32,349 bases of DNA from Deltaproteobacteria bacterium (GTDB lineage Bacteria; Desulfobacterota; Dissulfuribacteria; Dissulfuribacterales; Sh68), in NCBI GenBank assembly GCA_021787835.1, contig JAJYLJ010000001.1:1-32349 (forward strand), written 5' to 3'. Under the pieces are notes generated by a model, which had not been told where the DNA came from, did not search any database, and saw nothing but the letters and a program-made list of their open reading frames with translations. The position numbers and the translations under genes were made by a program. Positions within the stretch are counted from its first letter, which is position 1. Each line of letters starts with the position of its first letter. Below, piece by piece: positions 5,750 through 30,141 of the stretch.

Positions 5750-6225
5750 AGAAAATACCCCTCCACATGGAATACGAGCCCTTCATTAGACCTCTGTGAA
5801 GCAGCGCCACCCCCCTCCGGGTTTGGCCGCAAACCGCCCGCCTCCTGCTTATCTTGTCCGGAATGGGCGGCGGAAAAAGACTCAAGGGCGAATATCCTGT
5901 CCCCAAGATAAAGATTATAGAGCCTTTGAATAAGCTCTTCAAAGCTTATATTCAACCATTTCATGTCGGCCCTCTCCCAAACAAGATGACTGGCGGCGGC
6001 CCGCTTACCAGGCATATATCTGGCCTTAAGGGTCTGAAACAGGCGGATATTGGCCTCGGATATATTTAATACGGCCGCTTCGCTGTCAAGGGCAGAGGAT
6101 GCCAGCCTCAAGCCTTGCCCTTCATATAAAGCATTGGTCAGAAACCATAGGCTTGCGGCAAAAAACATGACCGCCGCAAGCTCCAATGCTAGCTCCTTGT
6201 AAGACGGCACCGGAACGCCATGCAT
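5731..6225 (-). CDS. mshJ: Inner-membrane pilus assembly protein, MshJ / PilO-like
   Basis: A 164-residue protein with one transmembrane helix near the N-terminus (LALELAAVMFFAASLWFLTN) and a periplasmic region carrying amphipathic helical segments, the plan of PilO, GspM and MshJ proteins. It lies between the PilM/PilN-like gene and the PilP-like gene, where PilO or MshJ is expected. I took the ATG at 6225, which overlaps the stop of the upstream gene as TGATG. An in-frame TTG at 6258 would add 11 residues but lacks a ribosome site. Function is inferred: it should pair with the PilN-like part of MshI to form the inner-membrane alignment complex. Confidence 0.65.
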   Translation of the reverse strand: MHGVPVPSYKELALELAAVMFFAASLWFLTNALYEGQGLRLASSALDSEAAVLNISEANIRLFQTLKARYMPGKRAAASHLVWERADMKWLNISFEELIQRLYNLYLGDRIFALESFSAAHSGQDKQEAGGLRPNPEGGGAASQRSNEGLVFHVEGYFLCLRNS

Positions 6226-7712: not shown

Positions 7713-8641
7713 GGCCTTATGACCTTGAATATCGTCCAGATAAACATCATGAGCAAAAAACAACCGGAGGCCAGGATCATGGCCTTCTGGTGCCATCCCC
7801 ACCTAAGATGCGTCATTTCAGGGATGGGCAGGGTCTCCTGCGCCACTTTTATGTCTTCGTCATATATCATGTGCCGACCCCGCGAACTCGCTATCAAAAA
7901 GGCCCTGTCCATGATCTTGTTTATAAGGCGCGGTATGCCGTAACTGGCCCGGTAAAGACGTGAAAGGGCCCTGGGCGCAAGTGTTATATCGGCCCTTCCC
8001 ACCTTTGCGAACCTAAAATTTATATACGCACCCATTTCCTGTCTTGTGAAGGGCCGCAGTTCCTCCCTTACGACAATGCGCTGGGCTAGCTGCCCAAGCT
8101 GGGGGGATTGCAAGATTACATCCAGCTCCGGCTGCCCTATCAGAAGTATCTGCAAGAGTTTGCGCCTGTCAGTTTCGATGTTTGAAAGGAGCCTCAACTG
8201 CTCAATGGTATCGAGCGGCAGGTTTTGCGCCTCGTCCACCACGATAAACAACTCCTTGCCCTTTGAGGCAAGATCGAGCACTGCGGCCTGAAATTGCTTG
8301 AGCAGCAGGCCCAAGTCGTCTCCATCTCCATCATACGGGCAACCCATCTCATCAAGTATGAGCCTCAGAAGGCCCGATGGGTTTACGGTCGGACTGACCA
8401 CCACGGCAGGGACCTTGTCTGGCGCAAGTCCTTCCAGGATAAGACGCAGTATAAGTGTCTTGCCTGTGCCGGCCGGACCTATAAGCACCATGAAGCCCTC
8501 GCCTCTTTCTATGGCGAACTTTAGCACCTCCTTCGCCGCGATATGCGGGGCCGCCGGAAAGAAAAAGTCAGGGTCTGGCGAAAGTCTGAACGGGGCGTCC
8601 TTGAGACCGAAATAGCCTATGTAATCAGGATAAGCCGCCAA
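7709..8641 (-). CDS. mshM: AAA ATPase of the ExeA/MshM family
   Basis: The start YFGLKDAPFRLSPDPDFFF is typical of ExeA/GspA/MshM proteins. Numbered from the upstream TTG at 8647, Walker A is GPAGTGKT at residues 57-64 and Walker B is LFIVVDEAQ with Asp138-Glu139. A sensor/arginine-finger region and a lid follow. A C-terminal transmembrane helix (ILASGCFLLMMFIWTIF) anchors the end of the protein. ExeA drives secretin insertion in Aeromonas together with ExeB; MshM is the counterpart in MSHA operons. The periplasmic peptidoglycan-binding domain of ExeA is absent, as usual for MshM. Two in-frame TTG codons, 8647 and 8641, could be the start. I prefer 8641 because GAGAGG is 8 nt upstream of it and only 2 nt upstream of the other. 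Confidence 0.9.
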   Translation of the reverse strand: MAAYPDYIGYFGLKDAPFRLSPDPDFFFPAAPHIAAKEVLKFAIERGEGFMVLIGPAGTGKTLILRLILEGLAPDKVPAVVVSPTVNPSGLLRLILDEMGCPYDGDGDDLGLLLKQFQAAVLDLASKGKELFIVVDEAQNLPLDTIEQLRLLSNIETDRRKLLQILLIGQPELDVILQSPQLGQLAQRIVVREELRPFTRQEMGAYINFRFAKVGRADITLAPRALSRLYRASYGIPRLINKIMDRAFLIASSRGRHMIYDEDIKVAQETLPIPEMTHLRWGWHQKAMILASGCFLLMMFIWTIFKVIRP

Positions 8642-8668
8642 AGGCAAAACCTCTCTCCAAACAAGGAA

Positions 8669-9871
8669 TCAATGCAGCCTGGTTATGATATCATAAATAG
8701 GCCCAAGCAGTCCAAGGGCTATGATCAAAAATATTAAGCCGGCAAATACTATAATGATAGGCTCGATAACCTTGGACATCGTATCAATAAACTTATTTAC
8801 CTTGGAACGGTAATGTTTGGCAAGCAGGGCTAGCTGATCCGGAAGGCCTCCGGTCTGTTCTCCGGCCGAGATCATGCGAAGGACAAACGGCTCGAAGAAA
8901 TCGACCCTTGAAAAGGATTCAAAAATGCTCTCGCCGGCCGTGATATCAGCCCTGATACCGCCTATCCCTTTTTTAAGGACCTGATTAGTTACCGATGCCT
9001 CCATAAACTCCAGGCCTTTGACAAAATTTATCCCAGCCGATGTAAGAACCGCCATATATTCAAAAAAGAAGGCCAATTGTGATGATTTTAACACATCACC
9101 TATCAAGGGGGAGCGCAGCCACGACAAATCCCACAGGTATTTCATGCGTTCGTTTTTGGCGGCTATTATATAAAATATAACGGCAACCACTGGGACTAAA
9201 ATGGCTGCCGGCCACCATCTATTGAATATCTCCACCGTCTTTATGAGGATCCTCGTTGCAAGCGGCAGGTCCTTTATGCCCATGTCTTTAAATAATTTCA
9301 ATATCTGCGGAAGCACGTAGATCATCCAGAAGGCGAGCGCCCCCGCCATTGCCGTCAGCACAAACGACGGATAGAGCAGGGCCTTTTTTGTATTCGAAAC
9401 GATCTCTTCTATCCGTTCGAGATGGGCCGCCGCGTCATCGAGCATCCTGTCAAGGTTGCCGGTCTCCTCGCCTATACTCACAAGCGTAATGAGAAGCCCT
9501 GAAAAGTGCCTGCGGTTCGCCTCCATGGCCGAAGATAAGAGCTGGCCGCCGTCAAGCCGCCTGAGGACATCGACAAGGACGTGCCTCAATGTCTTGATGC
9601 CCGGGCTTCTTGCCATATCGTCGATCGCCTGCCTTAAAGAGATGCCGCCCCTTACGAGCAAGGCCAGATTCCTGAAAAACTCGGCCATCAAGGTGCGCTT
9701 GACCTTACCGCCGGCAAAAGAACTCCATTTTATATATCTCCGGCGGTAATCAACGAGGACAAGACCCCTTGCCCCAAGCGTTTCAAACAGCCCCTCAAGA
9801 GACGGAAACTCCCCCTCGTCTTTTACCGGCACACCCGCACTGTCTATGGCTTTATATGAAAAAAACGGCAT
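8669..9871 (-). CDS. mshG: Inner-membrane platform protein, GspF/PilC/MshG family
   Basis: A 400-residue polytopic protein with the duplicated T2SSF domain. The first copy spans about residues 64-190, with FFRNLALLVRGGISLRQAI and the motif SIGEETGNLDRMLDDAA. The second spans about 265-390, with FFEYMAVLTSAGINFVKGL and SAGEQTGGLPDQLALLA. Three main hydrophobic segments are visible, at about 160-190, 220-240 and 370-395. The length is exactly family-typical. Its ATG directly follows the TAA of the ATPase gene with no gap, so translation is probably coupled. In the machine it is the inner-membrane rotor or platform that the assembly ATPase acts on to polymerise pilins. Confidence 0.95.
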   Translation of the reverse strand: MPFFSYKAIDSAGVPVKDEGEFPSLEGLFETLGARGLVLVDYRRRYIKWSSFAGGKVKRTLMAEFFRNLALLVRGGISLRQAIDDMARSPGIKTLRHVLVDVLRRLDGGQLLSSAMEANRRHFSGLLITLVSIGEETGNLDRMLDDAAAHLERIEEIVSNTKKALLYPSFVLTAMAGALAFWMIYVLPQILKLFKDMGIKDLPLATRILIKTVEIFNRWWPAAILVPVVAVIFYIIAAKNERMKYLWDLSWLRSPLIGDVLKSSQLAFFFEYMAVLTSAGINFVKGLEFMEASVTNQVLKKGIGGIRADITAGESIFESFSRVDFFEPFVLRMISAGEQTGGLPDQLALLAKHYRSKVNKFIDTMSKVIEPIIIVFAGLIFLIIALGLLGPIYDIITRLH

Positions 9872-11518
9872 TTAATAGATAACCCGCTGTATCTCGTCAA
9901 GGCTTGTTTCGCCTCTCTTAACCTTTGTCAGGCCGATATCCATAAGGTCCGCAAAGCCCTCTTTTCTGGCCTGATCATCTATATCTCCAAGCGGGGCGTC
10001 CTCGGCCACAAGCCTCAATATTTCCTTGGTGAACGGCAATATCTCAGCCACAACCATACGGCCTGAATAACCTGTCTGCCTGCAATGCTGGCATCCGACC
10101 GGCCTGAAATATTCCCCGTCCGGAGACAATTTATAACGCTCGATGAGTTCAGATGAAGGCAGATATTTTTCCTTGCAGTCAGGGCACAGCCTTCTAACCA
10201 GACGCTGTGCTGCTATGCCGACAAGTGAACTTGCAAGCAGAAACGGGGAGACGCCAAGATCTCTGAGCCTGGCGATCGCGCCCATGGCCGTATTCGCGTG
10301 CAGCGTCGAAAGCACAAGATGCCCGGTGAGCGCCGCCCTTACGGCAAAGGACGCGGTCTCATCGTCTCTTATCTCACCGACCAGTATCACATCGGGATCC
10401 TGGCGGAGGAACGTCCTGATGGCAGACGCAAAATCATAGCCCGCCTTTTCATTTACTTGCGTCTGCCTTATCATCATAAATTCGTATTCTATCGGGTCTT
10501 CCACCGTAATTATGTTCTTGCCTATGACATCTTGAATCCTGAGGGCTGCATACAGGGTCGTGGTCTTACCGCTTCCAGTGGGACCCGTTAGGAGCACCAT
10601 GCCGTGAGGATGTGAAAAAAGCTGTTTCATAACTTGCATCTGGTCATGCTCAAAACCAAGGTCGGAAAGACCCAGCACCTGGCCGCCTCTTGAAGGCAGG
10701 ATGCGGAGCACCATGTTTTCACCGAAATTGGTCCGTAAGGAGGAGACCCTTATATCAAAAAAGTCTCCCAAGAACTCGAAGGACATGCGCCCATCCTGGG
10801 GTTTCCTCTGCTCTGCTATATCCATACCCGACCTGACCTTTATGTTTGTCGCGAGACGGCTATGAAAAACCGCGGGAAACACATAGGCGGATGACATTAT
10901 GCCGTCCACCCTGAACATCACCCTGCTCGAAACACTGCTTGGGGTTATGTGGAGGTCAGTGGCCCTCAGGCTTACAGCGGAAGAAAGAAGCATATCCACG
11001 AGCTTGGCTATGTCTATATCAATGCTTGGATTGAGCCTCGCCCTTTCAACAATGCCGTCTATCTCGTCGGCGACAGGGTGTTCCAGGAGATAATAAAAGC
11101 GCTCCACCAGTTTCTTGAGCTCGTTTCTCCCGCCGACATGCGCAGTGGCGGGCAGGCCCGTAAACCGGAATATGATCTCTGAATATGTGGGGTCATAGGG
11201 GTCTGTAACGGCTATATGGAGGCTGTTGCCCTTAACGAAAAGCGGCAGGACCAGATTCTGTCTTGCAACCTGCGCCGGAAGCCTTGAAAGGACATTGGGA
11301 TCAGGTATGAAGACTCTGAGATCAATAAAGGGCATGCCGCTTTGCGCGGCCAAGGCCTTTGCTATGTCGGAATCGCTTACAATGCCAAGCCTTATAAGAC
11401 ATTCACCGAGCTTTTCGCCTGTAGCCTCCTGTTCCCTGACGGCGAATTGTATATACGCCTCACTTACAAGGTTCGCGTCTTTGAGTAATTTGCCGATCTG
11501 TGGGGCAGCGCTTGCCAT
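9872..11518 (-). CDS. mshE: Pilus assembly ATPase, MshE/PilB/GspE family
   Basis: The cytoplasmic motor that powers pilin polymerisation. Residues 1-150 form an MshEN/GspE N-terminal domain, which in MshE of Vibrio binds cyclic di-GMP; ligand binding here is inference only. The ATPase core has Walker A GPTGSGKT at residues 312-319, an Asp box around 339-346 (VEDPIEYEF), Walker B DPDVILVGEIRDDET at about 374-388 and a His box GHLVLSTLHANTA at about 399-411. A zinc tetracysteine follows: Cys445, Cys448, Cys476, Cys479. Length 548 is normal. It is first in the operon. The ATG at 11518 is preceded by AAAGG 9 nt upstream. No second, retraction-type ATPase (PilT) is nearby. Confidence 0.96.
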   Translation of the reverse strand: MASAAPQIGKLLKDANLVSEAYIQFAVREQEATGEKLGECLIRLGIVSDSDIAKALAAQSGMPFIDLRVFIPDPNVLSRLPAQVARQNLVLPLFVKGNSLHIAVTDPYDPTYSEIIFRFTGLPATAHVGGRNELKKLVERFYYLLEHPVADEIDGIVERARLNPSIDIDIAKLVDMLLSSAVSLRATDLHITPSSVSSRVMFRVDGIMSSAYVFPAVFHSRLATNIKVRSGMDIAEQRKPQDGRMSFEFLGDFFDIRVSSLRTNFGENMVLRILPSRGGQVLGLSDLGFEHDQMQVMKQLFSHPHGMVLLTGPTGSGKTTTLYAALRIQDVIGKNIITVEDPIEYEFMMIRQTQVNEKAGYDFASAIRTFLRQDPDVILVGEIRDDETASFAVRAALTGHLVLSTLHANTAMGAIARLRDLGVSPFLLASSLVGIAAQRLVRRLCPDCKEKYLPSSELIERYKLSPDGEYFRPVGCQHCRQTGYSGRMVVAEILPFTKEILRLVAEDAPLGDIDDQARKEGFADLMDIGLTKVKRGETSLDEIQRVIY

Positions 11519-16028: not shown

Positions 16029-17240
16029 TTATTCAACCTCGAGAAGATGACCCATCTTCTCTTTTTTACACTTCAGATAATTTATGTTTTGCTCATGAGG
16101 CGCTATCTCTATCGGGACCCTCTCCACAACCTTAAGCCCGTAGCCCTCGAGGCCAACAATCTTTTTTGGATTATTTGTCATCAGCTTCATACGCCTTACT
16201 CCAAGGTCCCGGAGTATCTGGGCCCCTATGCCGTAATCCCTGAGATCGGCCTTGAATCCAAGTTCATAGTTCGCCTCGACTGTATCCCTGCCCTGATCCT
16301 GCAGACAATAGGCCTTGAGCTTGTTGATAAGCCCTATGCCGCGGCCCTCCTGCCTCATGTAAAGTATGACCCCGCGGCCCTCGCGGGCGATCCTGTGCAT
16401 GGCCGTCTGAAGTTGCGGACCACAATCGCACCTCAAGGACCCGAAGACATCGCCGGTCAGACATTCTGAATGGACGCGCACCAATATGTCTTCATCAGAC
16501 ATTATATCGCCGTCGCCAAGCACAAGCGCCAAGTGGTGCTTCTGATCGAGCAGGCTGCTATACGCGATAAGCCTCCAGTCCCCGCCGAACCTGGAGGGGA
16601 TCCTCGTCTCAACCTCTCTTTTTACCAGGCTCTCGATACGCAGACGATATGCTATCAAATCCGCCACCGTGGCTATCTTCAGGCCGTGCCCCCTGGCGAA
16701 GACTTCAAGGTCAGGCATCCTCGCCATCGTGCCGTCATCCTTCATTATCTCGCATATTACGCCGGCCGGTTTAAGGCCGGCAAGACGGGCGAGATCCACA
16801 GAGCCCTCGGTCTGGCCAGCCCTTACAAGCACGCCTCCGTCCCTTGCCCGCAGCGGGAAGACGTGGCCAGGGGTGGCTATGTCCGCCGGGCCGGCGCCGT
16901 CCGCAATGGCGGTAAGTATGGTAGTGGCCCTGTCCTGGGCCGAGATGCCTGTCGTAACGCCTCTTGCGGCCTCTATTGAAACCGTAAAGGCCGTCCCGAA
17001 TTTGGAGGTATTACTTGATACCATCATGGGAAGCTTAAGGCTTTCTACCTTTTGACCGGTAAGCGCAAGACAGACAAGCCCGCGGCCGTACTTGGCCATA
17101 AAATTTATGGCCTCTGGCGTAACCTTCTCGGCGGCCATGGTAAGATCACCCTCGTTCTCACGGTCCTCATCATCAACGAGGATGATCATCTTGCCCGCCT
17201 TGATATCCTCTAAAACCTCTTCAATTGAAGACACTGACAT
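16029..17240 (-). CDS. ribBA: Bifunctional 3,4-dihydroxy-2-butanone 4-phosphate synthase / GTP cyclohydrolase II
   Basis: It makes both precursors of lumazine: DHBP from ribulose 5-phosphate (N-terminal half) and the pyrimidine from GTP (C-terminal half). The DHBP synthase part (about 1-205) has [10 protein letters not shown] near residue 23, [14 protein letters not shown] and [11 protein letters not shown]. The cyclohydrolase II part has [18 protein letters not shown], with the three zinc-binding Cys, and [19 protein letters not shown] followed by DTVEAN. Both sets of catalytic residues seem intact, so neither half looks degenerate. An in-frame GTG at 17249 is an alternative start, but AGGG lies about 10 nt before the ATG at 17240 and only a base or two before the GTG. 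Confidence 0.97.
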
Positions 17241-17282
17241 CTCTATCACACCCTTTTACGGAGTTAGCCGCAAACATCTTTT

Positions 17283-17942
17283 TTATATGAAACCATGACG
17301 GGCCAGGAACGCCCGGTCAAACCCATCGTCTTTTTCAGCTTCACCTTCCGGCCTCTTGGGCCTGAGTAATTTTTCAATATACTTCCCAATCAGGTCAAGC
17401 TCAATATTGACCTTGTCACCGGCCTTCCTCCTGCCAAGCGTGGTAATGTCCGCCGTATGAGGGATCATGGAGACAGAAAGACGCCCCGGGCCGCAACTGT
17501 TGACCGTGAGGCTTACGCCGTCAAGTGCTATGGAGCCCTTTTCTATAATATATCTGTCAAAATCCAAGGGCACGGCCACTGAAATAAGGACAAATCGGCC
17601 AAGAGGCCTCTTTTCCAGTATACGGCCCACACCGTCAATATGCCCACTCACAAGATGCCCGCCGAGCCTGCCTGAAAGACGTAGCGCACGCTCCAGGTTT
17701 ACCACGTCCCCTGCCTTCAGATCCCCGAGATTTGACCTTGAGATGGTCTCTGGCGATACATCGGCCTTAAAGGAACCAGACAATATGGATGCGGCCGTTA
17801 GGCATGCGCCGTTTACAGCTATGCTCTCACCTTCTTCCGGATCGTCCAGGACGAAACCGGGCGCGATCTCAAGCACAAGGCCGCTGTCCTTCCGGGTAAT
17901 CTGCCTTATCGCTCCAAGGCCCTCAACTATGCCAGTAAACAT
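17283..17942 (-). CDS. ribE: Riboflavin synthase alpha subunit
   Basis: Dismutates two molecules of dimethyl-ribityllumazine into riboflavin and the ribitylaminouracil substrate. Two lumazine-binding repeats are seen: the first starts [12 protein letters not shown], and the second is announced by [14 protein letters not shown] near residues 95-110. NGACLTA and DGVSLTVN are the paired ligand-binding motifs. At 219 residues it is slightly long at the C-terminus but normal. It starts one base after the ribD stop codon, so translation is probably coupled. The same gene is called ribC or ribE depending on nomenclature. Confidence 0.97.
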
Positions 17943-17943
17943 C

Positions 17944-19083
17944 CTAGGCCCGCCAAAATCTGTCCAGGTCTGTCACGACGCCGTGAACCAGCCAGTTGTC
18001 GCCTATCTTTCTGTGGCTTATCATCTTAAGCCTTGGTGCGCCGTCTAGATGTCCGGCGCCGTGCCCGCCTATCGAGCAAGGGGCGTCCGTGCCGCCTATC
18101 ACAACCGGCGCATAGAAAAAAAAGGCCTCATCAACCAGCCCCTGATCCCAAAAAGTACCATGTATAGTAGCCCCACCCTCAACCAGCAACGACTGTATCC
18201 CGGACTCGCCCATCCTTGCAAGGACATCACCCATACGAGGCCTTCCATGTCTGTCGGGCGGCATGAGCCAGACCTCTGCGCCGGAGGCCTCCAGCGCCTC
18301 TTTCTTTTCAAGGCGGACGCCAGCTTCAGAGCCTACCACCACGGCTCTGCCGGTCTCGCCAAGCACCCTGCTATTGATACCTATCTCAAGCCTGCTATCC
18401 AGCACAAATCTTATCGGATCCTTGGCCTGGCCCCAGGCCGTTTTTTCTTTTATTCTGCATGTAAGCCGCGGATCATCGAGCAAGACGGTATTTTTCCCAA
18501 CAAGTATCGCATCGCTTGCGGCCCTGAGGGTGTGGCCCAGCATACGCGCGCGCGCACTGGTGATCCACTTCGACTCGCCAGTCCTGGTGGCCACCCGCCC
18601 GTCAATGCTCAACGCCGCTTTCGTCCTCACCCATGGAAGCCCTGTCGTTACATGCTTTGCAAAAGGGGCTATCAATAGGCGGCATCTGTCCTCCATGCAG
18701 CCCGTCTGGACTTCCAGGCCGCGGCTTCGCAGGAATCCGGCCCCTCCGCCCGCAATATTCGGGTTCGGGTCCATTGCCCCGACCACAACCCGGCTGACCC
18801 CGGCCTCGACAATCGCCTTGGTGCAAGGCGGAGTGCGGCCATAGTGGTTGCAAGGCTCAAGGGTCACATAGATAGTTGAACCCTCGGCCTTTTCACCGGC
18901 CGAGCTTATTGCATGGACCTCAGCATGCGCCGTCCCCGTCTTTTGATGGAACCCCTCGCCGGCTATCACACCGTCCCTTACCACAACAGCTCCTACAGCC
19001 GGGTTCGGGCTTGTCCGCCCGAGGCCCCTTTCCGCAAGCCTCAAGGCCCTCGCCATAAATCTTATGTCCTGCCGTGTCCACAT
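17944..19083 (-). CDS. ribD: Bifunctional diaminohydroxyphosphoribosylaminopyrimidine deaminase / 5-amino-6-ribosylaminouracil reductase
   Basis: Carries out the second and third steps of riboflavin synthesis from GTP. The N-terminal deaminase has TSPNPAVGAVVV, the zinc motif HAEVHAI, and EPCNHYGRTPPCTKAI with the other two zinc Cys. The C-terminal reductase begins at about residue 145 (PWVRTKAALSIDGRVA) and has SLLVEGGATIHG, the NADPH-site signature. 379 residues is full length. The ATG at 19083 lies 7 nt after the nrdR stop. I see no FMN riboswitch upstream; the rib genes appear to be read through from the nrdR side. Confidence 0.97.
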   Translation of the reverse strand: MWTRQDIRFMARALRLAERGLGRTSPNPAVGAVVVRDGVIAGEGFHQKTGTAHAEVHAISSAGEKAEGSTIYVTLEPCNHYGRTPPCTKAIVEAGVSRVVVGAMDPNPNIAGGGAGFLRSRGLEVQTGCMEDRCRLLIAPFAKHVTTGLPWVRTKAALSIDGRVATRTGESKWITSARARMLGHTLRAASDAILVGKNTVLLDDPRLTCRIKEKTAWGQAKDPIRFVLDSRLEIGINSRVLGETGRAVVVGSEAGVRLEKKEALEASGAEVWLMPPDRHGRPRMGDVLARMGESGIQSLLVEGGATIHGTFWDQGLVDEAFFFYAPVVIGGTDAPCSIGGHGAGHLDGAPRLKMISHRKIGDNWLVHGVVTDLDRFWRA

Positions 19084-21369: not shown

Positions 21370-21813
21370 TTAAACAGGTCTATCTATCATGGCCAACCTG
21401 CAGGCATGACGGCCGCCGGCAAAGGCGGTCGAAAGCCATATTTTTACCATTTCTTCGGCAATGGCCGGACCGAGCACCCTGCCACCCATGCAAAGTATAT
21501 TCGCATCATTGTGCTCACGGCTGAGGCGGGCCGTATAAAGCTCATGACACAAGGCGGCCCTGATGCCAGGGGTCCTATTAGCCATTATGGACATGCCTAT
21601 TCCGGTCCCGCAAATCAGTATCCCTCTTTCATATTCACCTGACGCAACAAGACCCACCACAATACGGCCTATCTCAGGGTAATTGACAGATTCTGTGGAA
21701 TAACAGCCGACATCCTTTATCTCATGATCCAAGGACTGGACAGCGGCCTTTATCTGTCCTTTAAGTTCAAACCCGCCGTGATCAGAACCTATCGCTATCT
21801 TCATGGGCCTCAT
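21370..21813 (-). CDS. rpiB: Ribose 5-phosphate isomerase B
   Basis: Interconverts ribose 5-phosphate and ribulose 5-phosphate; the latter is the substrate of RibBA encoded downstream. Family motifs are [15 protein letters not shown] at the start, [10 protein letters not shown] with the catalytic Cys68, [13 protein letters not shown], and [17 protein letters not shown]. The ATG at 21813 makes a 4-base ATGA overlap with fabF, while the ATG at 21804 would give the more common MKIAIGSDH start. Both are plausible and differ by three residues. LacA/RpiB sugar isomerases share the fold; RpiB is the more likely identity given the neighbours. Confidence 0.96.
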
Positions 21814-23063
21814 CCTTCATAGCGCCTGAATATAAGGACCGCATTGGTGCCGCCAAATCCAAAGGAATTGGACATCGCCACATTTACACTCTTGCGCCTG
21901 GCGATATTGGGGACATAATCCAGATCGCACTCAGGGTCAGGATTTTCATAGTTGACAGTAGGCGGGATAATGCCGTCTTCAATGGTCTTGATAGCGAAAA
22001 CGGCCTCTATGCCGCCAGCGCCGCCCAATAGATGCCCTGTCATGGACTTGGTTGAACTTACCGGTATCTTTTTGGCCACTTCCTTAAAGACGGTCTTGAT
22101 CGCCCTTGTTTCGCAGCTGTCATTGAGCTGGGTGCTGGTACCATGGGCGTTTATGTAATCTATGTCTTTATATGTAAGCCCTGCGTCATCAAGGGCCATC
22201 TGCATGCACCTTGCGGCGCCCTCGCCATCATCAGGGGGCGCTGTCATGTGATACGCATCTCCAGTAAGGCCGTAGCCAACTATCTCGGCGTGAACATCAG
22301 CCCCGCGTCTTAAGGCATGCCCAAGCTCTTCTATTACAAGTATACCGGCGCCCTCGCCTATTACAAACCCGTCGCGATCCCTCTCAAAAGGTCTTGACGC
22401 CTTTTCAGGCTCGCTGTTTCTGACCGACAGGGCCTTCAGCGATGCAAATCCGCTAAGGGCGAGCGGGGTTATGACCGACTCTGTGCCGCCGCAGATCATG
22501 GCATCGGCAGCGCCCCTCTGAATGGTCTTGAACGCCTCGCCGATTGCATGGGATCCGGCCGCACAGGCCGTACACAAAACCGTATTGGGGCCCTTTGCGC
22601 CAAAAATGATTGATATTTGGCCAGAGGCCATGTTCGGTATCGCCATGGGGATGAAAAACGGGCTGACCCTGTCCGGTCCTTTTTGCACCAAGACATCCCT
22701 ATAGCGTTCGATGGTTCCAAGCCCTCCGAGACCGCAGCCGGTTATAACCCCGAGCCTTGGGGCAAGTGAGGACGAGACCTCTAAGGCGGCGTCATCCATG
22801 GCCATCTTTGTGCAGGCCAAGGCATAGGCCACAAATAAATCTATGCGCTTGGCAAGCTTTGGTGAAATAAAATCCGACGAATCAAACCCCTTGACCTCTC
22901 CGGCGATCTGGCAGTCATAACCGCTGACGTCAAAGCGTGTAACAGGACCTATCCCAGACCTTCCCGCTGTAAGATTCTCCCACCCAGGCAAGACCCCTAT
23001 GCCAAGCGGGCTGATAAGACCCAAACCCGTCACTACAACGCGCCGCATCTGAATATCCGCCAT
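21810..23063 (-). CDS. fabF: Beta-ketoacyl-ACP synthase II
   Basis: Condensing enzyme that elongates acyl-ACP with malonyl-ACP. The Cys-His-His triad is present: Cys167 in [13 protein letters not shown], His in [11 protein letters not shown], and His in [15 protein letters not shown]. The N-terminal [16 protein letters not shown] and the ending [15 protein letters not shown] are typical. Length 417 fits. The ATG at 23063 has AAGGG about 5 nt upstream. It directly follows acpP, the normal acpP-fabF arrangement. Confidence 0.98.
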
Positions 23064-23080: not shown

Positions 23081-23317
23081 CTATTTTTTTGAATTGTTCT
23101 TCACAAAGTCTATGGCGTTTTGCACGGTCTGCATCTTTTCGGCGTCTTCATCGGCGATCTCTATGCCGAATTCCTCCTCCATAGCCATGACCAGCTCGAC
23201 AAGATCGAGAGAATCGGCGCCCAGATCATCCACAAATGAAGCGGATGGCACCACCTTCTCCTTGGCTACGCTCAGCTGGTTGGCTATGATATCAACCATT
23301 TTATTCTCTATTCCCAT
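23081..23317 (-). CDS. acpP: Acyl carrier protein
   Basis: Small acidic carrier of growing acyl chains. The 4'-phosphopantetheine attachment site is Ser36 in [18 protein letters not shown]. Length 78 is typical. The ATG at 23317 is preceded by a strong AGGAGG ribosome site 9 nt upstream, fitting the high expression of ACP. A 104-nt gap separates it from fabG; it is AT-rich and could hold a promoter, but no candidate there is convincing. Confidence 0.98.
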
Positions 23318-23421: not shown

Positions 23422-24180
23422 TTAATTACAGATCAGCCCTCCATTCACATGAAGCACATGGCCTGTTATGTACGATGCGTCCTCCGAACCCAAAAAAGCG
23501 ACCGCGGCGGCCACGTCCTCCGCCTTCCCCATTCTGCCCAAGGGTATCCGGGCAAGCAACTGCTCTTTTATCTTCTCTGAAAGCCCTGCGGTCATATCGG
23601 TCTCGATAAACCCGGGGGCCACGACATTGGCCGTTACACCGCGGGAGGCCACCTCCCTGGCGACAGACTTTGTAAGGCCTTCAAGCCCGGCCTTTGCCGC
23701 CGCATAATTGACTTGGCCGGCGTTTCCCATTGTGCCCACTACCGAACCTATGTTGACGATCCGCCCCCATCTTTGCTTCATCATGGCTGTAATGGCGGGC
23801 TGTATGCAGTTAAACACCCCCTTGAGGTTTACGGATATAACCCTGTCCCAGTCGTCCGGCTTCATGCGTGCGACAAGGGCGTCCCTTGTTATGCCGGCAT
23901 TGTTGACAAGGATATGAAGCCCCCCGGCCTCGTTTATCAGCCCCTTTATAGCGCCTGAGGCGGCCGCTCCATCCGCCACATCGAAAGGCAGCAGCGAGGC
24001 CTTTCCGCCTGACGCCGCTATCTCGTCAGAAACCGCTCTCGCCAGCGACTCGGAACTGGCGTAATTTATAAACACATAGGCGCCAAGGAAGGCCAATTTT
24101 AAACATACCGCCCTGCCTATCCCTCTCGAACCGCCTGTCACCAAGGCGACCTTGCCATCAAGACCCTTTACACAACACAT
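23422..24180 (-). CDS. fabG: 3-oxoacyl-ACP reductase
   Basis: NADPH-dependent reductase of the elongation cycle, short-chain dehydrogenase fold. The nucleotide motif is TGGSRGIGRA near residues 15-24, NNAG at about 93-96, and the catalytic Ser146, Tyr159 and Lys163 are all present. The end (GSEDASYITGHVLHVNGG) is FabG-like. Length 252 is slightly longer than usual because of a few extra N-terminal residues. It directly follows etfA by 2 nt. In most relatives fabD or fabH precedes fabG, so the etfA neighbour is unusual. Confidence 0.96.
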   Translation of the reverse strand: MCCVKGLDGKVALVTGGSRGIGRAVCLKLAFLGAYVFINYASSESLARAVSDEIAASGGKASLLPFDVADGAAASGAIKGLINEAGGLHILVNNAGITRDALVARMKPDDWDRVISVNLKGVFNCIQPAITAMMKQRWGRIVNIGSVVGTMGNAGQVNYAAAKAGLEGLTKSVAREVASRGVTANVVAPGFIETDMTAGLSEKIKEQLLARIPLGRMGKAEDVAAAVAFLGSEDASYITGHVLHVNGGLICN

Positions 24181-24182
24181 AT

Positions 24183-25241
24183 CTAGACCACCCTGCCAGT
24201 CTTTTCCAGCCTTATCTGTCTTATGAGCTCGGGCAGTATCAGGCCTACATTTCCAACCAAACCATAAGTAGATAGGTCAAATATGGGGGCGTCGGGGTCT
24301 TTATTCACGGCGACTATGATTTCAGAGTCTTTTATCCCCGCCACATGTTGCACGGCCCCTGAAACGCCAAGGCCTATATAAAGCCTCGGGGATACCGTGA
24401 CGCCTGACTGGCCGATCTGCAACCTTTCAGGCAGCCAGCCTTGATCAACGATAGGCCTCGTGCCGCCGACGGCCCCGCCCAAAAGCCCTGCAAGCTCTTT
24501 TACCAGGGCCATATCTTTTTCGTGCTCAACACCCCTGCCGGCCACGACTATCACCTTGGCCCCATAAAGCCGGCACTCGTCGCCGGCATCATCCTTCACC
24601 GATTCGACCACCCTTAACCTATGCTCAAGCCATTCCGCCTCCGGGCTTATACTTACGATCTCACCCTGTCTGGCTGGATCAGGCAGGACCTTTTTAAAGA
24701 CATGCGGCCTTACCGTGGCCATCTGAGGCCTTCTAAGAGGGCATACGATAGTCGCAAAAAGGTTCCCGCCCCAGGCCGGTCTCGTCTGAAGCAACACTCT
24801 ATCTTTTGGGTCTATGTCCAGATCCATGCAATCGGCGGTGAGCCCTGTCTCAAGGATGGTTGCAGCCCTCGGGATATAGGCCCTGCCCATTAAAGTGGCG
24901 CCGGCAAGTATGATCTCCGGCCTGTATTTAAGCGCAAGCCCAGCGAGCACGCCGCCGTAGGCCTCCTCGGTAAACGAGGCAAGCTCAGGGTGATCCACAA
25001 CAAGCACCTGGTCCGCACCGTGACCTATAAGCTCTCCGGCAAGTCCATCAACATGATAACCAATCAACACGGCCGCAAGGGGCGCGCCAAGCTTATCTCC
25101 GAGCACCCTCGCCTTGGCGAGAAGTTCAAGGGTGACATCGGCCGCCCTTTCACCGGTGCGCTCGGCCGCCACCCATATCCCGCGCCAAGGGACCGGGGTT
25201 CCTGCTTGAAGGCCCTGTTCTTTGCCAGCATTATCGGACAT
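24183..25241 (-). CDS. etfA: Electron transfer flavoprotein, alpha subunit
   Basis: Carries FAD and shuttles electrons between the acyl-CoA dehydrogenase and an electron acceptor. The C-terminal FAD domain has the family signature around SPRLYIGLGVSGAVQHVAG and VAVNKDPDAPIF, plus VGGTRPIVDQGWLP. The N-terminal domain opens with a short extension and then WRGIWVAAER, which resembles the clostridial, anaerobic type of EtfA more than the mitochondrial type (recalled, not computed). Length 352 is a little above the usual 310-340. It lies 14 nt after etfB and 2 nt before fabG. Whether this ETF bifurcates electrons cannot be settled by eye. Confidence 0.95.
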   Translation of the reverse strand: MSDNAGKEQGLQAGTPVPWRGIWVAAERTGERAADVTLELLAKARVLGDKLGAPLAAVLIGYHVDGLAGELIGHGADQVLVVDHPELASFTEEAYGGVLAGLALKYRPEIILAGATLMGRAYIPRAATILETGLTADCMDLDIDPKDRVLLQTRPAWGGNLFATIVCPLRRPQMATVRPHVFKKVLPDPARQGEIVSISPEAEWLEHRLRVVESVKDDAGDECRLYGAKVIVVAGRGVEHEKDMALVKELAGLLGGAVGGTRPIVDQGWLPERLQIGQSGVTVSPRLYIGLGVSGAVQHVAGIKDSEIIVAVNKDPDAPIFDLSTYGLVGNVGLILPELIRQIRLEKTGRVV

Positions 25242-25255
25242 AATCAGTCTCCAGA

Positions 25256-26050
25256 CTAAAGCAGCCCCGCCTCTTTAAGCCGTCCTATCAAGGCCCTCAC
25301 CTGTTCCTCAACTGTCCCTGAAAGCATCTCCTTTCTTGCGTTAAAGGCATGGACAGCGGTTGAAACGACCCTGGTCGGCGAGCCTTCGAACCCTATCTTT
25401 TTGAGATCGGCCTTGATATCGTTCGCGTTATAAATTGTGATGTCGGCCTTTTTGGCCCTCATTTTCCCTTTGAGTGAAGGCAGTCTCGGCGTATTCAACA
25501 ACGGCGGAACAGTTACCAGAAAGGGTGGCTCGACCTCTACTACGTCGTAGCCAGAATCGGTCTCGCGCCTGAATCTGAATAGCCCTCCGTCATTCAAGAC
25601 CGTTATTTCCTTTACGTATGCAACGCTTGGCAAACCAAGCCGCACGGCAAGACCAGGCCCCACTTGGGCGGTGTCGCCATCCATGGACTGCTTGCCACAG
25701 ATCACAACGTCAAAACGCCCCAACATCTCGATGCCCTTGGCCAATATGTACGTGGTGGCAAGCGTGTCAGAGCCGGCAAAAGACCTGTCCGAAAGAAGGA
25801 CCCCCTTATCGACGCCCATTGCAATCGTCTCTCTCAAGGCCTCGACAGCCTGCGGCGGCCCCATTGAAATAGCCGTGACCTCCCCGCCAAGGGCATCCTT
25901 GAGACTCAATCCGGCCTCAAGCGCATTAAGATCCACAGGGTTTATGACCGCGTCAACCCCTTCCCTTATAATGGTCCCCTTTTCAGCGTCAAACCTGACC
26001 GTCCTGGCGTCCGGGACCTGTTTTATACAGACAACGATATTGAGTGGCAT
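25256..26050 (-). CDS. etfB: Electron transfer flavoprotein, beta subunit
   Basis: Partner of EtfA in the ETF heterodimer. The start MPLNIVVCIKQVPDA is typical. The nucleotide-binding stretch runs through DTLATTYILAKGIEM and DVVICGKQSMDGDTAQVGP, and the signature loop is near residues 120-130. From the ATG at 26050 the length is 264, the family norm. A TTG at 26065 would add five residues and overlap the acyl-CoA dehydrogenase gene. It begins just after that gene, so acd-etfB-etfA form one unit. Confidence 0.95.
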   Translation of the reverse strand: MPLNIVVCIKQVPDARTVRFDAEKGTIIREGVDAVINPVDLNALEAGLSLKDALGGEVTAISMGPPQAVEALRETIAMGVDKGVLLSDRSFAGSDTLATTYILAKGIEMLGRFDVVICGKQSMDGDTAQVGPGLAVRLGLPSVAYVKEITVLNDGGLFRFRRETDSGYDVVEVEPPFLVTVPPLLNTPRLPSLKGKMRAKKADITIYNANDIKADLKKIGFEGSPTRVVSTAVHAFNARKEMLSGTVEEQVRALIGRLKEAGLL

Positions 26051-26058
26051 CGGTGCTG

Positions 26059-27228
26059 TTAACAATCCTTAATGATCTGTTCTTTATTTATGGCCTGGCC
26101 TATTATGTTTCTCAGTATCTGGTTGGTGCCTTCGTATATCTGCAAGACCTTCGCATCCCGCATCATCTTTTCAACCGGGTAATCCTTCATGTAACCGTAG
26201 CCGCCGAGTATCTGGACCGCATCGGTCGTGATTTTCATGGCCGCATCGGTCGGAAAGAGCTTGGCCATGGCGGATACCTTGGCGAAATCCTTTGCGCCGG
26301 CGTCAATGGTCCTTGCCACCGCATAGACAAGGGCTCGCGAGGCCTCTATCTGTGTCGCCATATCCGCCAGCATGTGCTGTATAATCTGAAAGGATATAAT
26401 CGGCTGACCGAACTGGATGCGTTCCTTTGCATATCTCGTGGCCTCGTTAAAGGCCGCATGAGCAAGCCCCACACCTATGGCGCCTATACCCGGACGGGCG
26501 AGATCCAGAGTCTTCATGGCGATTATAAAACCCTGGCCTCGTCTCCCAAGGATGCGTTCTTTTGGAATACGGCAGTCATTAAATATGAGCTCCCTTGTTG
26601 ACGAGGCCCTAAGACCCATTTTGCGTTCCTTCTTGCCAAAACCGAAACCAGGGTCTCCCTTCTCCACAATAAAGGCCGTAGCCCCGCGCGCACCTTTGTT
26701 TCTGTCGGTAAGGGCCACTATAGTATAGACATCCGCCTCGCCGCCGCTTGTAATCCACTGCTTGGCACCGTTTATCACCCAGGAATCACCATCTTCAACC
26801 GCAGTTGTCTGGATGGCGGCCGCGTCACTTCCAGCGTTCGCCTCCGTGAGCCCAAAGGCTGTAAAACGTCTGCCCGATGCTATATCTGGAAGATACAACC
26901 TTTTCTGCTCTTCGGAGCCATAAAGCAATATTGGATAGCCGCCAAGGGCGCTGGCCGCGTATGTTGTGGTCACCGCTATGCAGCCATATGCAAGCGCCTC
27001 GAGGGCAAGACACATCTCAAAGCAGCCCTTGCCCAGCCCGCCGTATTCCTCGGGTATATAAAGACCGAAGAGGTCCGCCTTGGCAAGCTCTTTCATGATA
27101 TCCCATGGAAACTCCTCTTTTTCATCCAGTTCGGCGCGCACGGGAATAATCTTCTCCTTGGATATCCTGAGGGCCAAATCCACAATCATCTGTTGCTCTT
27201 CGGTAAGAAGGTAATCAACATGGGCCAT
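26059..27228 (-). CDS. Acyl-CoA dehydrogenase
   Basis: FAD enzyme of the short/medium-chain acyl-CoA dehydrogenase type, expected to form or reduce a 2,3-double bond with the adjacent ETF as electron partner. Family blocks are FGLTEANAGSD at about 125-135, KQWITSGGEADVY at 156-168 and RIQFGQPI at about 270-277. The end holds LGGYGYMKDYPVEKMMRDAK then IYEGTNQI, with Glu366 in the position of the catalytic base. The ATG at 27228 has AGGAGAGGA 7 nt upstream; an earlier TTG at 27234 is less likely. 389 residues is normal. The substrate is unknown, and an acyl-ACP or a branched or aromatic acyl-CoA cannot be excluded. Confidence 0.95.
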   Translation of the reverse strand: MAHVDYLLTEEQQMIVDLALRISKEKIIPVRAELDEKEEFPWDIMKELAKADLFGLYIPEEYGGLGKGCFEMCLALEALAYGCIAVTTTYAASALGGYPILLYGSEEQKRLYLPDIASGRRFTAFGLTEANAGSDAAAIQTTAVEDGDSWVINGAKQWITSGGEADVYTIVALTDRNKGARGATAFIVEKGDPGFGFGKKERKMGLRASSTRELIFNDCRIPKERILGRRGQGFIIAMKTLDLARPGIGAIGVGLAHAAFNEATRYAKERIQFGQPIISFQIIQHMLADMATQIEASRALVYAVARTIDAGAKDFAKVSAMAKLFPTDAAMKITTDAVQILGGYGYMKDYPVEKMMRDAKVLQIYEGTNQILRNIIGQAINKEQIIKDC

Positions 27229-27290
27229 AAACAAATCCTCTCCTGATAAAGTGATTGAATCTCTTTAGAAAAACAGGCTCCCTGATCCTG

Positions 27291-28274
27291 TTACCACCGC
27301 ATGGCCAGCGCCCCCCAGGTAAAGCCTCCCCCGAAAGCCACCATCAAAAGCCTCATCCCGGGCTTTAAGAGTCCGGAACGGTTCGCCTCATCAAGGGCTA
27401 TCGGGATGCTTGCCGCCGAGGTATTACCATATTTGTTGATATTGATAAAGACCTTATCTTCCGAAAGCCCAAGCCTTTCCCTGAGAAAATCAAGTATCCG
27501 TATGTTGGCCTGATGCGCCAGCAAAAGGTCTATCTGGTCTGTGGTCCAATTATTGGCGCTGAGGGCCTCCCAGGCCACCGCCTCCAGGGCCTTGACGGCA
27601 TATTTGAACACTTCCTTGCCCTGCATCTGGATATACTGCCACCCAAGACCGAGCATCTCGGCGGTTACGGGCTGGGCCGTGCCAAGACCCTTGATGGTAA
27701 GAAGCCCGCCGAGGGACCCGTCCGCATGAAGATGAGTTGAAAGTATGCCCCTGTCCTCCCTTACGCCGGTCACAACAGCCGCGCCCGCGCCGTCGCCGAA
27801 CAGGACGCAGGTTGTTCTGTCAGACCAGTTGGTGCGCCGCGACAGAACTTCGCTTCCAACGACCAATATCTTCATCTTGCGATTGTCGCGTATAAACTTG
27901 TCTGCTATCGACAGGCCATAAATAAAACCCGAACAGGTGGCCGAAAGATCAAAGGCCCCGGCTTTTTTTGCGCCGAGTTCCTTCTGCACAAGACAGGCCA
28001 CTGACGGCATGGGCATATCGGGCGTAAATGTGCCGACTATTATTAGGTCCAAGTCATCCGGACGGATCCTGGCCATTTCAATGGCCTTTTTCGCAGCCCT
28101 TGCGGCAAGAAAGGAGTTCGTCTCTCCCTCGCCTATCAAATATCTCTGCTCTATGCCCGTTCTTGTCCTGATCCACTCGTCGCTCGTCTCAACGACGGCC
28201 TCAAGGTCCTTGTTTGTGACGAGGCGGCATGGAAGGGCCGAGCCGGTTCCTATGATTACGGTCCTGTTAGGCAT
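27291..28274 (-). CDS. fabH: Beta-ketoacyl-ACP synthase III
   Basis: Starts fatty-acid synthesis by condensing acetyl-CoA with malonyl-ACP. The triad is intact: Cys114 in LSATCSGFIYGL, His254 in LLAHQANIRIL and Asn284 in NKYGNTSAAS. DEWIRTRTGIEQR near residues 32-44 and the C-terminal GGGFTWGALAMRW are family hallmarks. Length 327 is normal. It follows plsX by 2 nt. A 62-nt gap then precedes the acyl-CoA dehydrogenase gene. Confidence 0.98.
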   Translation of the reverse strand: MPNRTVIIGTGSALPCRLVTNKDLEAVVETSDEWIRTRTGIEQRYLIGEGETNSFLAARAAKKAIEMARIRPDDLDLIIVGTFTPDMPMPSVACLVQKELGAKKAGAFDLSATCSGFIYGLSIADKFIRDNRKMKILVVGSEVLSRRTNWSDRTTCVLFGDGAGAAVVTGVREDRGILSTHLHADGSLGGLLTIKGLGTAQPVTAEMLGLGWQYIQMQGKEVFKYAVKALEAVAWEALSANNWTTDQIDLLLAHQANIRILDFLRERLGLSEDKVFININKYGNTSAASIPIALDEANRSGLLKPGMRLLMVAFGGGFTWGALAMRW

Positions 28275-28276
28275 CG

Positions 28277-29290
28277 TCAGGTGGCCGCGCTGGACAGTCT
28301 TACGGCGTCCTGCTTCAAGGCCTCGGCGATCTGTCCGGCAAGATCGGCCCTTGCAAGCTCATGGGCGACGGATACGGCGTTTTTCACGGCCCTGGGGCCT
28401 GAACGTCCATGGCATATTATGGCGACTCCATTTACGCCCAAAAGAGGCGCTCCGCCATATTCCGAATAATCCACCTTTTTCTTGAATCTGTGAAATGCCG
28501 ACCACGCAAGCCTATAGCCAATCTTAGCCATCAGACTCCTCTTTATCTCCGTCTTTAACATGGTGAGCACCGATTCCGCCAGACCCTCGCTCAGCTTAAG
28601 GCAGATATTGCCCACAAAACCGTCGCATACAATGACGTCGACATCACCCTTGAATATATCCCTTCCCTCGACATTTCCCAGAAAATTAAGTTCGCTTGCG
28701 GCCAAAAGGTCATAAGCGCGTTTCACCTGGAGGTTTCCCTTTGAATATTCCTCGCCGATGCTCAAAAGCCCGACCCTTGGTCTCGGATTGTCTATGATCC
28801 TCTTTGCGAAAATGGAGCCCATTATGCCGAACTGCAATAAATGATGAGGTCTGCAATCAACGTTGGCTCCGACGTCGATCATGACCACAGGATCTTTCAA
28901 TGTAGGCATTATGGTCGCGATGGCAGGGCGAACGCTGTTTATCCTGTCAAGGGCCACGATGGCCGTCGCCAGGGTCGCACCCGAGTTGCCGGCGCTCACT
29001 ACCGCGTGGGCGATTCCCTTGTTGACCAGCTCAAAGGCCACCCTTATGGTGGAGTCTTTTTTGTGCCGCAGCGATTCGGCCGGAGACTCCTCCATATCGA
29101 CAACCTGAGAGGCGGGATAGATATCTATAGGAAGACCGCCCCCGTCATAATGCTCGACATAGCCCGCAAGCACGTCTTCACGGCCCACCAGCGTAATGGC
29201 TATGCCTTTTTCCCTGGCGGCCGCCACAGCCCCCTCAACCAAGACCTCGGGACCGTGGTCGCCACCCATGGCGTCAACCGCAACCCTCAT
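28277..29290 (-). CDS. plsX: Phosphate acyltransferase PlsX
   Basis: Converts acyl-ACP to acyl-phosphate, the acyl donor for PlsY in phospholipid synthesis. MRVAVDAMGGDHGPEVLVEG at the start and SAGNSGATLATAIV, IDVGANVDCRPHHLLQFG and CDGFVGNICLKLSEG further on are clear PlsX segments, and the C-terminal part has SEYGGAPLLGVNGVAIICHG. Length 337 is normal. It sits in the conserved rpmF-plsX-fabH order, 3 nt after rpmF. Confidence 0.98.
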   Translation of the reverse strand: MRVAVDAMGGDHGPEVLVEGAVAAAREKGIAITLVGREDVLAGYVEHYDGGGLPIDIYPASQVVDMEESPAESLRHKKDSTIRVAFELVNKGIAHAVVSAGNSGATLATAIVALDRINSVRPAIATIMPTLKDPVVMIDVGANVDCRPHHLLQFGIMGSIFAKRIIDNPRPRVGLLSIGEEYSKGNLQVKRAYDLLAASELNFLGNVEGRDIFKGDVDVIVCDGFVGNICLKLSEGLAESVLTMLKTEIKRSLMAKIGYRLAWSAFHRFKKKVDYSEYGGAPLLGVNGVAIICHGRSGPRAVKNAVSVAHELARADLAGQIAEALKQDAVRLSSAAT

Positions 29291-29526: not shown

Positions 29527-30063
29527 TCATGCCTTAAGGCCCCTCAAAACGGAAAACGGCCCATTGTCCATATCCTTTTTGCAACGGCACAATTCATCAT
29601 TGAGATCGGCCCCGCAACCAGGGCACATGCCCTTGCACTCTTCGTTGCATACATGACGCATCGGTATCTGAAGCAAAATCTGCTCTTTCAAGATATCTCC
29701 TATAGGCGCCTCTTTGCCGTTATAGGTCAAAACCTCGGCATCCGCCCTATTGGCCGCGTCGAACCCCTCTTTCTCGGCGGAACCTGGGACCAACAGATAT
29801 GCAAATGGCGCCTTAACCTCGAAGGGATATATTTTAAGGCAACGGTCACACGTCAAATTCATCATGACATCAATGGAACCTTTGACATAAATAAAATCAT
29901 CGACCCTGTTGAGGCATGCATTCACCCTCAAAACCCGCCCGGGGTCAGGACCATCTATTATCCCTGCCAACAAACCCGGGGCATCGTCATACGAAAGACA
30001 CAACCCCTCGTCAGGGATGTCCTCTACTGGTATATGATACCTAAAATTTGCGCTGGCTTCCAT
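29527..30063 (-). CDS. yceD: DUF177 / YceD family protein (23S rRNA accumulation protein)
   Basis: 178-residue member of the DUF177 family, usually found directly upstream of rpmF; E. coli YceD and plant DUF177 proteins affect 23S rRNA accumulation. A first Cys pair is seen in LTCDRCLKIY near the middle. A Cys-rich C-terminal zinc-like segment has the pattern CNEECKGMCPGCGADL followed by CRC. The N-terminal half is beta-rich with no recognisable motif. The start at 30063 lacks a clear ribosome site, but a strong promoter lies about 50 nt upstream, so this is probably the first gene of the long operon. Confidence 0.9.
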   Translation of the reverse strand: MEASANFRYHIPVEDIPDEGLCLSYDDAPGLLAGIIDGPDPGRVLRVNACLNRVDDFIYVKGSIDVMMNLTCDRCLKIYPFEVKAPFAYLLVPGSAEKEGFDAANRADAEVLTYNGKEAPIGDILKEQILLQIPMRHVCNEECKGMCPGCGADLNDELCRCKKDMDNGPFSVLRGLKA

Positions 30064-30113: not shown

Positions 30114-30141
30114 ACTATATATGTTGGCGGATTCTTGTCAA
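30114..30141 (-). promoter_or_regulatory. Sigma-70 promoter for the yceD-rpmF-plsX-fabH operon
   Basis: On the minus strand TTGACA (plus-strand 30136-30141, all six consensus bases) is followed after a 16-nt spacer by TATAGT (30114-30119), five of six matches. Transcription would begin near 30107, about 45 nt before the yceD ATG at 30063. It lies between the tatC stop and yceD and is the best promoter candidate for the 18-kb downstream block. Confidence 0.72.

Follow-up and report, generated by a model that had tools for sequence, protein, structure and literature searches.

A dehydrogenase and an electron-transferring flavoprotein within a fatty-acid synthesis operon

The 32,349-nucleotide stretch of contig JAJYLJ010000001.1 analysed here (hereafter the window), from a Deltaproteobacteria bacterium of the class Dissulfuribacteria (phylum Desulfobacterota; genome G000, 88% complete), carries on its minus strand a type II fatty-acid synthesis operon in which three genes, acd, etfB and etfA, lie between fabH and fabG. 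The gene order, confirmed from gene coordinates and family matches (Table 1), is plsX-fabH-acd-etfB-etfA-fabG-acpP-fabF; acd encodes a flavoprotein of the acyl-CoA dehydrogenase family, and etfB and etfA encode the small and large subunits of an electron-transferring flavoprotein (ETF). Based on the evidence presented below, we consider it likely that acd-etfB-etfA encodes the enoyl-acyl carrier protein (ACP) reductase used for type II fatty-acid synthesis both in this host and in most of its class; the same gene occurs across much of the phylum and also in Nitrospirota. More generally, many anaerobic bacteria appear to perform the last reduction of fatty-acid synthesis with an acyl-CoA-dehydrogenase-like flavoenzyme, and not with a known enoyl reductase.

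The intergenic gaps measure 62 nt between fabH and acd, 8 nt between acd and etfB, 14 nt between etfB and etfA and 2 nt between etfA and fabG. A terminator scan of the minus strand from fabH to fabG found a single terminator-like site, which lies within the etfA coding sequence. The start codon of acd is the ATG at 27228, with AGGAGAGG upstream (alternative, TTG at 27234), and that of etfB the ATG at 26050 (alternative, TTG at 26065). An earlier reading of the window, made from its letters only (the sequence-only reading), had described the position of the three genes between fabH and fabG, the tight spacing from etfB to fabG, an intact catalytic Glu366 in the dehydrogenase (counted from the 27228 ATG) and the lack of both fabD and an enoyl reductase gene in the window; all of these observations stand.

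The arrangement was compared across 46 genomes of the class (11 families) and 297 genomes of the phylum, with acd counted as present in the phylum sample at E <= 1e-150. Orthologues with 75-88% identity were found in 43 of the 46 class genomes (22 genera), in single copy except in one assembly with two near-identical partial copies; the three genomes without a match (G015, G018 and G038) are all fragmented assemblies. At every one of the 30 class loci inspected, acd is kept with its neighbours as far as the contigs reach. In the phylum, acd is present in 135 of the 297 genomes, one copy each, and all 40 loci that were read, from 34 families, have it among plsX, fabH, fabD, fabG, acpP and fabF. 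Three arrangements occur: acd-etfB-etfA-fabG, as in the window; acd-etfB-etfA-fabD-fabG; and acd-fabD-fabG without ETF genes. The last type, plsX-acd-fabD-fabG-acpP-fabF, is seen for instance at L154, L156, L157, L163, L169, L173, L182 and L185-L187. In a collection of named genomes, 68 of the best 80 loci have a fab context, the records belonging to Desulfobacterota, Nitrospirota (Thermodesulfovibrionia) and a few otherwise-labelled entries, and the remaining 12 lie outside it, mostly in Nitrospirota. A position held in 34 families of the phylum and again in Nitrospirota rules out the chance insertion into the operon that the sequence-only reading had kept as its alternative.

The Nitrospirota orthologues located off the fab operon (L065-L067, L069, L072, L074, L075, L084, L085 and L093) were read in two cases, L067 and L072, where acd comes after genes for a phosphoribosyltransferase and a PmbA/TldD peptidase.

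Known enoyl reductases and the gene content of acd carriers

The absence of fabD from the window had led to the suggestion that acd-etfBA stands in its place. This was not borne out: G000 has a fabD gene on a different contig (G000:C177:6898-7749, 283 bits against an equivalog cut-off of 260.9), and many relatives have fabD next to acd within one operon (acd-fabD-fabG or acd-etfB-etfA-fabD-fabG). Family searches of G000 for fabI, fabK, fabL and fabV found no known enoyl reductase. Among the outcomes that the sequence-only reading had named as adverse to its proposal, a fabD elsewhere is the only one to have come true; no enoyl reductase turned up, the dehydrogenase groups apart from the sampled beta-oxidation paralogues and the arrangement is present in relatives.

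A PF13561 search detected no FabI-type short-chain dehydrogenase/reductase (SDR) in G000; its four matches are FabG (the highest), an aldolase-SDR fusion (by sequence) and two proteins which, scanned separately, are not FabI. No protein of G000 reaches the FabL equivalog cut-off of 328 (NF005975), the top FabL-model score seen being 104 bits (L005), and none matches PF12241 (FabV). The sole protein of the nitronate monooxygenase (NMO) family found in G000 scores 120 against the FabK cut-off of 453 (TIGR03151) and is a homologue of Helicobacter pylori FabX (258 bits) with a conserved C-terminal Cys motif; FabK was thus discarded as a hidden reductase of this genome. The FabX homologue is encoded at L006:1438-2556 (G000:C25), between M16 peptidase-like and ilvE-like genes, and keeps the four C-terminal Cys; its presence sits oddly with a strict anaerobe, the FabX reaction being oxygen-linked. 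An uncharacterised SDR with Arg at the position of the SDR catalytic Lys is shared by G000 and the closed relative G032 (L004:1468-2328 and L265).

Since G000 is incomplete, these absences need support from relatives. A true FabI was counted at a score of at least 230 bits, because matches of 141-170 bits form a separate group. By this count FabI is present in 53 of the 297 phylum genomes, namely in 3 of the 135 acd carriers against 50 of the 162 non-carriers (Fisher p = 5e-12, relatedness ignored), and one family is common to the 41 with acd carriers and the 20 with FabI. FabV is found in a single carrier of the 135 and the FabK cut-off is passed by none; FabI, FabV and any FabK-fold match at E <= 1e-25 are all missing from 53 carriers, which represent 22 families. 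In this sample acd and the known enoyl reductases thus largely exclude each other.

The operon Acd is the only acyl-CoA dehydrogenase (PF00441) in G000, in the closed genomes G032, G082, G305, G059, G252 and G234 and in the near-complete G117; G000, G032, G305, G059, G252 and G117 have no ETF pair other than that of the operon. No true thiolase was found in any of these eight genomes by a PF00108 search, the weak and partial matches (E about 1e-6 or worse) in G000, G032, G082, G305, G252 and G234 being read as ketosynthase cross-hits. With a single dehydrogenase and no thiolase there is no ordinary beta-oxidation, so the module must serve something else, and from the neighbours of acd its role is read as fatty-acid synthesis. 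A role in beta-oxidation is thereby ruled out for the closed carriers. The same gene content comes close to refuting the wider proposal of a CoA-specific role for acd-etfBA in catabolism or fermentation (beta-oxidation, butyryl-CoA, propionate or aromatic degradation), its place in the fab operon being accidental. The nearest named families are indeed CoA enzymes (AcrC, cyclohexanecarbonyl-CoA dehydrogenase and Bcd); however, the conserved position described above and the placement of beta-oxidation paralogues, where present, in other clades make this proposal very improbable.

Like the window's genome, the closed relative G032 lacks FabI and FabV. In closed G252 (3,282,536 bp), the one SDR of the FabI/FabG family is its FabG, and neither a FabI/FabL-type SDR nor a FabK-fold match nor FabV was found; the operon Acd is here the only visible candidate for enoyl reduction. 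This bears on a further explanation, in which the main enoyl-ACP reductase is some other protein (the FabX/NMO homologue, a divergent SDR or an unrelated flavoprotein), leaving acd-etfBA to produce or adjust a special acyl chain or to keep redox in balance. Such a reductase could be sought in the one NMO-fold protein present in G000 and in each class member of the phylum sample, in the NMO-like gene without the FabX Cys motif that separates acpP from fabF, within the operon that also holds acd-etfB-etfA, at two loci outside the phylum (L077 and L098, labelled Actinomycetota), or in a FabI-like SDR of G059 (see below). We consider this explanation unlikely, since G252 has none of these candidate proteins, the 53 carriers described above have no match to FabI, FabV or the FabK fold, and the NMO protein of G000 falls far short of FabK and matches FabX.

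The dehydrogenase, its ETF and the predicted reaction

Acd scores far above the cut-offs of all three domains of the acyl-CoA dehydrogenase superfamily (PF02771, PF02770 and PF00441), and its catalytic Glu, within IYEGT, is conserved without exception in 132 of 132 orthologues. Among solved structures, Acd is closest to the butyryl-CoA dehydrogenase from the Clostridioides difficile bifurcating complex (5ol2_C, 398 bits). The pocket residue four positions before Glu366 is Leu in 127 of the 132 orthologues, versus Thr in the two butyryl-CoA dehydrogenases aligned; this is compatible with longer acyl chains, and settles neither the chain length nor whether the substrate is carried by ACP or CoA. 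The nearest NCBIfam models for the three proteins are acryloyl-CoA reductase subunits AcrC and AcrA (with AcrB second for EtfB), which form a system working in the reductive direction; all are below cut-off, and Acd, for instance, scores 438 bits against the curated AcrC cut-off of 640 (NF042972). In a maximum-likelihood tree of 62 sequences, all sampled copies from the operon and from orphan positions form one clade (support 100/99), the orthologues having 62-88% identity; the other dehydrogenases of the same genomes fall outside it, at 35-47% identity. The phylogeny called for by the sequence-only reading thus separates the operon Acd from the sampled beta-oxidation paralogues.

The ETF is, as judged from its sequence, of the NADH-using, bifurcating type. 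Both window subunits have caffeyl-CoA reductase as their closest solved relative: EtfB scores 216 bits to CarD, 208 to the Thermotoga maritima ETF, 206 to Lct and 195 to the C. difficile protein, against 88 to human ETF, and EtfA scores 291 to CarE, 274 to T. maritima and 266 to C. difficile, against 152 to human ETF. In place of the canonical ETF motif, EtfB carries DGDTAQVGP, which marks the NADH site in ETFs of the bifurcating type; DGDT[AG]QVG is exact in 83 of 90 fab-linked EtfB relatives and altered in the other seven. An N-terminal two-cluster (2[4Fe-4S]) ferredoxin domain is present on EtfA in 76 of 87 fab-linked relatives. As in the bifurcating Bcd, Car and Acr complexes, the dehydrogenase, EtfB and EtfA are encoded together. 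In genomes of the acd-fabD-fabG type the ETF is encoded elsewhere; it is of bifurcating type in G057 and G069 and of canonical type in G055 and G156. Neither the window EtfA nor that of some relatives has the ferredoxin domain (window 24183-25241 compared with L038-L188), apparently through loss in some lineages.

In the scheme that we infer from these features, FabG, a presumed dehydratase FabZ and FabH/FabF would produce a trans-2-enoyl thioester on AcpP, whose phosphopantetheine arm and acyl chain would be bound by Acd in the manner of a Bcd/CarC-type enzyme. NADH, the probable donor, would reduce the EtfB-bound flavin, and electrons would pass through the ETF flavins to the FAD of Acd, which would give a hydride to C3 of trans-2-enoyl-ACP while Glu366 protonates C2. 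The enzyme is possibly bifurcating: one electron per NADH may go to ferredoxin, the strongly exergonic enoyl reduction driving ferredoxin reduction. This flow is suggested because the ETF is of bifurcating type and the EtfA of most relatives carries the two-cluster ferredoxin domain, and it is plausible because NADH-dependent reduction of enoyl thioesters releases enough energy to drive that of ferredoxin, as in Bcd-EtfAB. A tentative extension, for which we see almost as much chance of its being right as wrong, is that in every elongation cycle the NADH-dependent reduction of enoyl-ACP is coupled to that of ferredoxin, so that making membrane lipid would recover energy which FabI-type organisms lose as heat. 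The sequence-only reading had suggested, as one possibility, that a flavin-based route with an anaerobic-type ETF reduces enoyl thioesters during synthesis. Strong support for this comes from the operon conservation, the lack of other enoyl reductases and of beta-oxidation, and the type of the ETF.

That reading had also raised double-bond introduction. Acd would then act oxidatively on acyl-ACP, dehydrogenating C2-C3 to start unsaturated fatty-acid synthesis with the ETF as acceptor, much as FabX performs acyl-ACP C2-C3 dehydrogenation in H. pylori (PMC8626469). Acyl-CoA dehydrogenases are classically oxidative, and an ETF is able to accept electrons; however, if the role were oxidative, genomes that lack FabI, FabK-fold proteins and FabV would have no enzyme for the essential reduction of enoyl-ACP, and G000 already has a FabX homologue available for this purpose, which makes double-bond introduction by Acd less likely. 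The ETF, moreover, is of the NADH-using bifurcating type, and the dehydrogenase partners of such ETFs reduce enoyl thioesters. We therefore regard the oxidative role as improbable.

Several observations weigh against Acd-Etf as the enoyl-ACP reductase. Enoyl-ACP reduction by Acd is predicted from gene content and operon context, the sequence does not discriminate between ACP and CoA as carrier, and the window's genome is incomplete. Three acd carriers (G240, G262 and G321) also have FabI; these carriers (L140-L142), all from a single taxonomic family, have the highest of all FabI scores, which suggests a later gain. FabK-fold proteins below the FabK cut-off, which are possible reductases, are present in many large-genome carriers. 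The carrier G059 encodes a FabI-like SDR with Y-x6-K (L274, G059:C1:1893590-1894303; 161 bits against a cut-off of 391), and FabI-like matches of 141-170 bits occur in several other carriers; G059 is for this reason not set beside G252 as lacking every enoyl reductase, and is weaker evidence. About 112 of the 297 phylum genomes have neither acd nor FabI, and the absence of FabI alone is therefore not diagnostic. As for bifurcation, the window EtfA (352 aa) lacks the two-cluster ferredoxin domain of the CarE/LctC type, and bifurcation cannot be universal to the system, because plsX-acd-fabD-fabG operons have no ETF genes and the ETF encoded elsewhere is sometimes non-bifurcating. The SDR gene of G059 adjoins a ketosynthase-like match.

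Relation to known systems and surrounding genes

The system resembles caffeyl-CoA reductase CarCDE of Acetobacterium woodii (PDB 6fah), which likewise comprises a dehydrogenase, an EtfB with DGDTAQVG and an EtfA; unlike CarCDE, it lies in fatty-acid synthesis operons and not in a caffeate operon, and its predicted substrate is enoyl-ACP. The ferredoxin domain on EtfA of most fab-linked relatives is presumably a feature shared with CarE, whereas the window EtfA, lacking it, is like that of C. difficile. Bcd-EtfAB (C. difficile 5ol2; Acidaminococcus fermentans 4l1f/4kpu) and AcrCAB have the same three subunits, but act in fermentation, on CoA esters of short chain length; the fab-linked sequences form a clade of their own (100/99), with Leu replacing the pocket Thr of Bcd and with scores under the AcrC cut-off. 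With FabI, FabL, FabK and FabV the system would share the predicted reaction, the conversion of trans-2-enoyl-ACP to acyl-ACP that ends each elongation cycle, and it differs from them in having the unrelated acyl-CoA dehydrogenase and ETF fold instead of an SDR or NMO fold. That the dehydrogenase fold can act on carrier-protein thioesters is illustrated by the prolyl-PCP dehydrogenases of the RedW/PltE type (PDB 4irn) and by MbtN; these are oxidative, belong to secondary metabolism and have distant scores to Acd (254 and 59 bits, respectively). H. pylori FabX (PDB 7e1q) is likewise a flavoenzyme that works in fatty-acid synthesis, on C2-C3 of acyl-ACP; however, it is oxidative and of the NMO fold, and its G000 homologue is encoded outside the acd operon.

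The bacterial enoyl-ACP reductases known are FabI, FabL, FabK, FabV and FabI-like metagenomic variants, and a 2022 review of these enzymes is silent on acyl-CoA dehydrogenases and bifurcation (PMC9260719). Our literature search, with most subscription papers and preprints outside its reach, found no earlier report of an enoyl-ACP reductase of the acyl-CoA dehydrogenase type. The component parts, bifurcating dehydrogenase-ETF complexes, are known; their use in fatty-acid synthesis appears to be new. If the proposal is true, enoyl-ACP reductases include one more class, of unrelated structure, in much of Desulfobacterota and in Nitrospirota, which would explain fatty-acid synthesis without FabI, FabK, FabL or FabV in these bacteria and would correct annotations that assign acd to beta-oxidation, including in organisms incapable of it. 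Within the literature searched, it would also be the first instance in which lipid synthesis itself could conserve energy by flavin-based bifurcation.

Table 1. Features of the fatty-acid synthesis locus in the window, in presumed order of transcription
Feature	Coordinates	Strand	Basis
promoter-like site upstream of yceD	30114..30141	-	consensus scan alone, 11/12 matches; such sites are about as frequent in the window as in shuffled sequence
yceD family, first gene of presumed rpmF-plsX-fab transcript	29527..30063	-	weak NCBIfam YceD match
rpmF-like small open reading frame (ribosomal protein L32), 61 aa	29294..29479	-	CxxC-type Zn residues and position between yceD and plsX; no HMM basis
plsX, phosphate acyltransferase	28277..29290	-	NCBIfam TIGR00182, 351 bits
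fabH, beta-ketoacyl-ACP synthase III	27291..28274	-	NCBIfam TIGR00747, 398 bits
acd, acyl-CoA-dehydrogenase-family flavoprotein, proposed enoyl-ACP reductase, catalytic Glu366	26059..27228	-	Pfam N, M and C domains
etfB, ETF small subunit, bifurcating-type NADH motif DGDTAQVGP	25256..26050	-	closest solved relatives and motif alignment
etfA, ETF large subunit, without N-terminal 2[4Fe-4S] domain	24183..25241	-	closest solved relatives
fabG, 3-oxoacyl-ACP reductase	23422..24180	-	NCBIfam TIGR01830, 332 bits
acpP, acyl carrier protein	23081..23317	-	NCBIfam TIGR00517, 105 bits
fabF, beta-ketoacyl-ACP synthase II	21810..23063	-	NCBIfam TIGR03150, 634 bits

Beyond fabF, the minus strand continues with rpiB and glyA, among others. 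The riboflavin genes ribBA, ribE and ribD lie on the same strand past glyA and nrdR, downstream of the operon (16029-19083), and a cluster of secretin, T2SSF, T2SSE/MshEN and AAA genes at 3621-11518 is of the type II secretion or type IV pilus-like kind.

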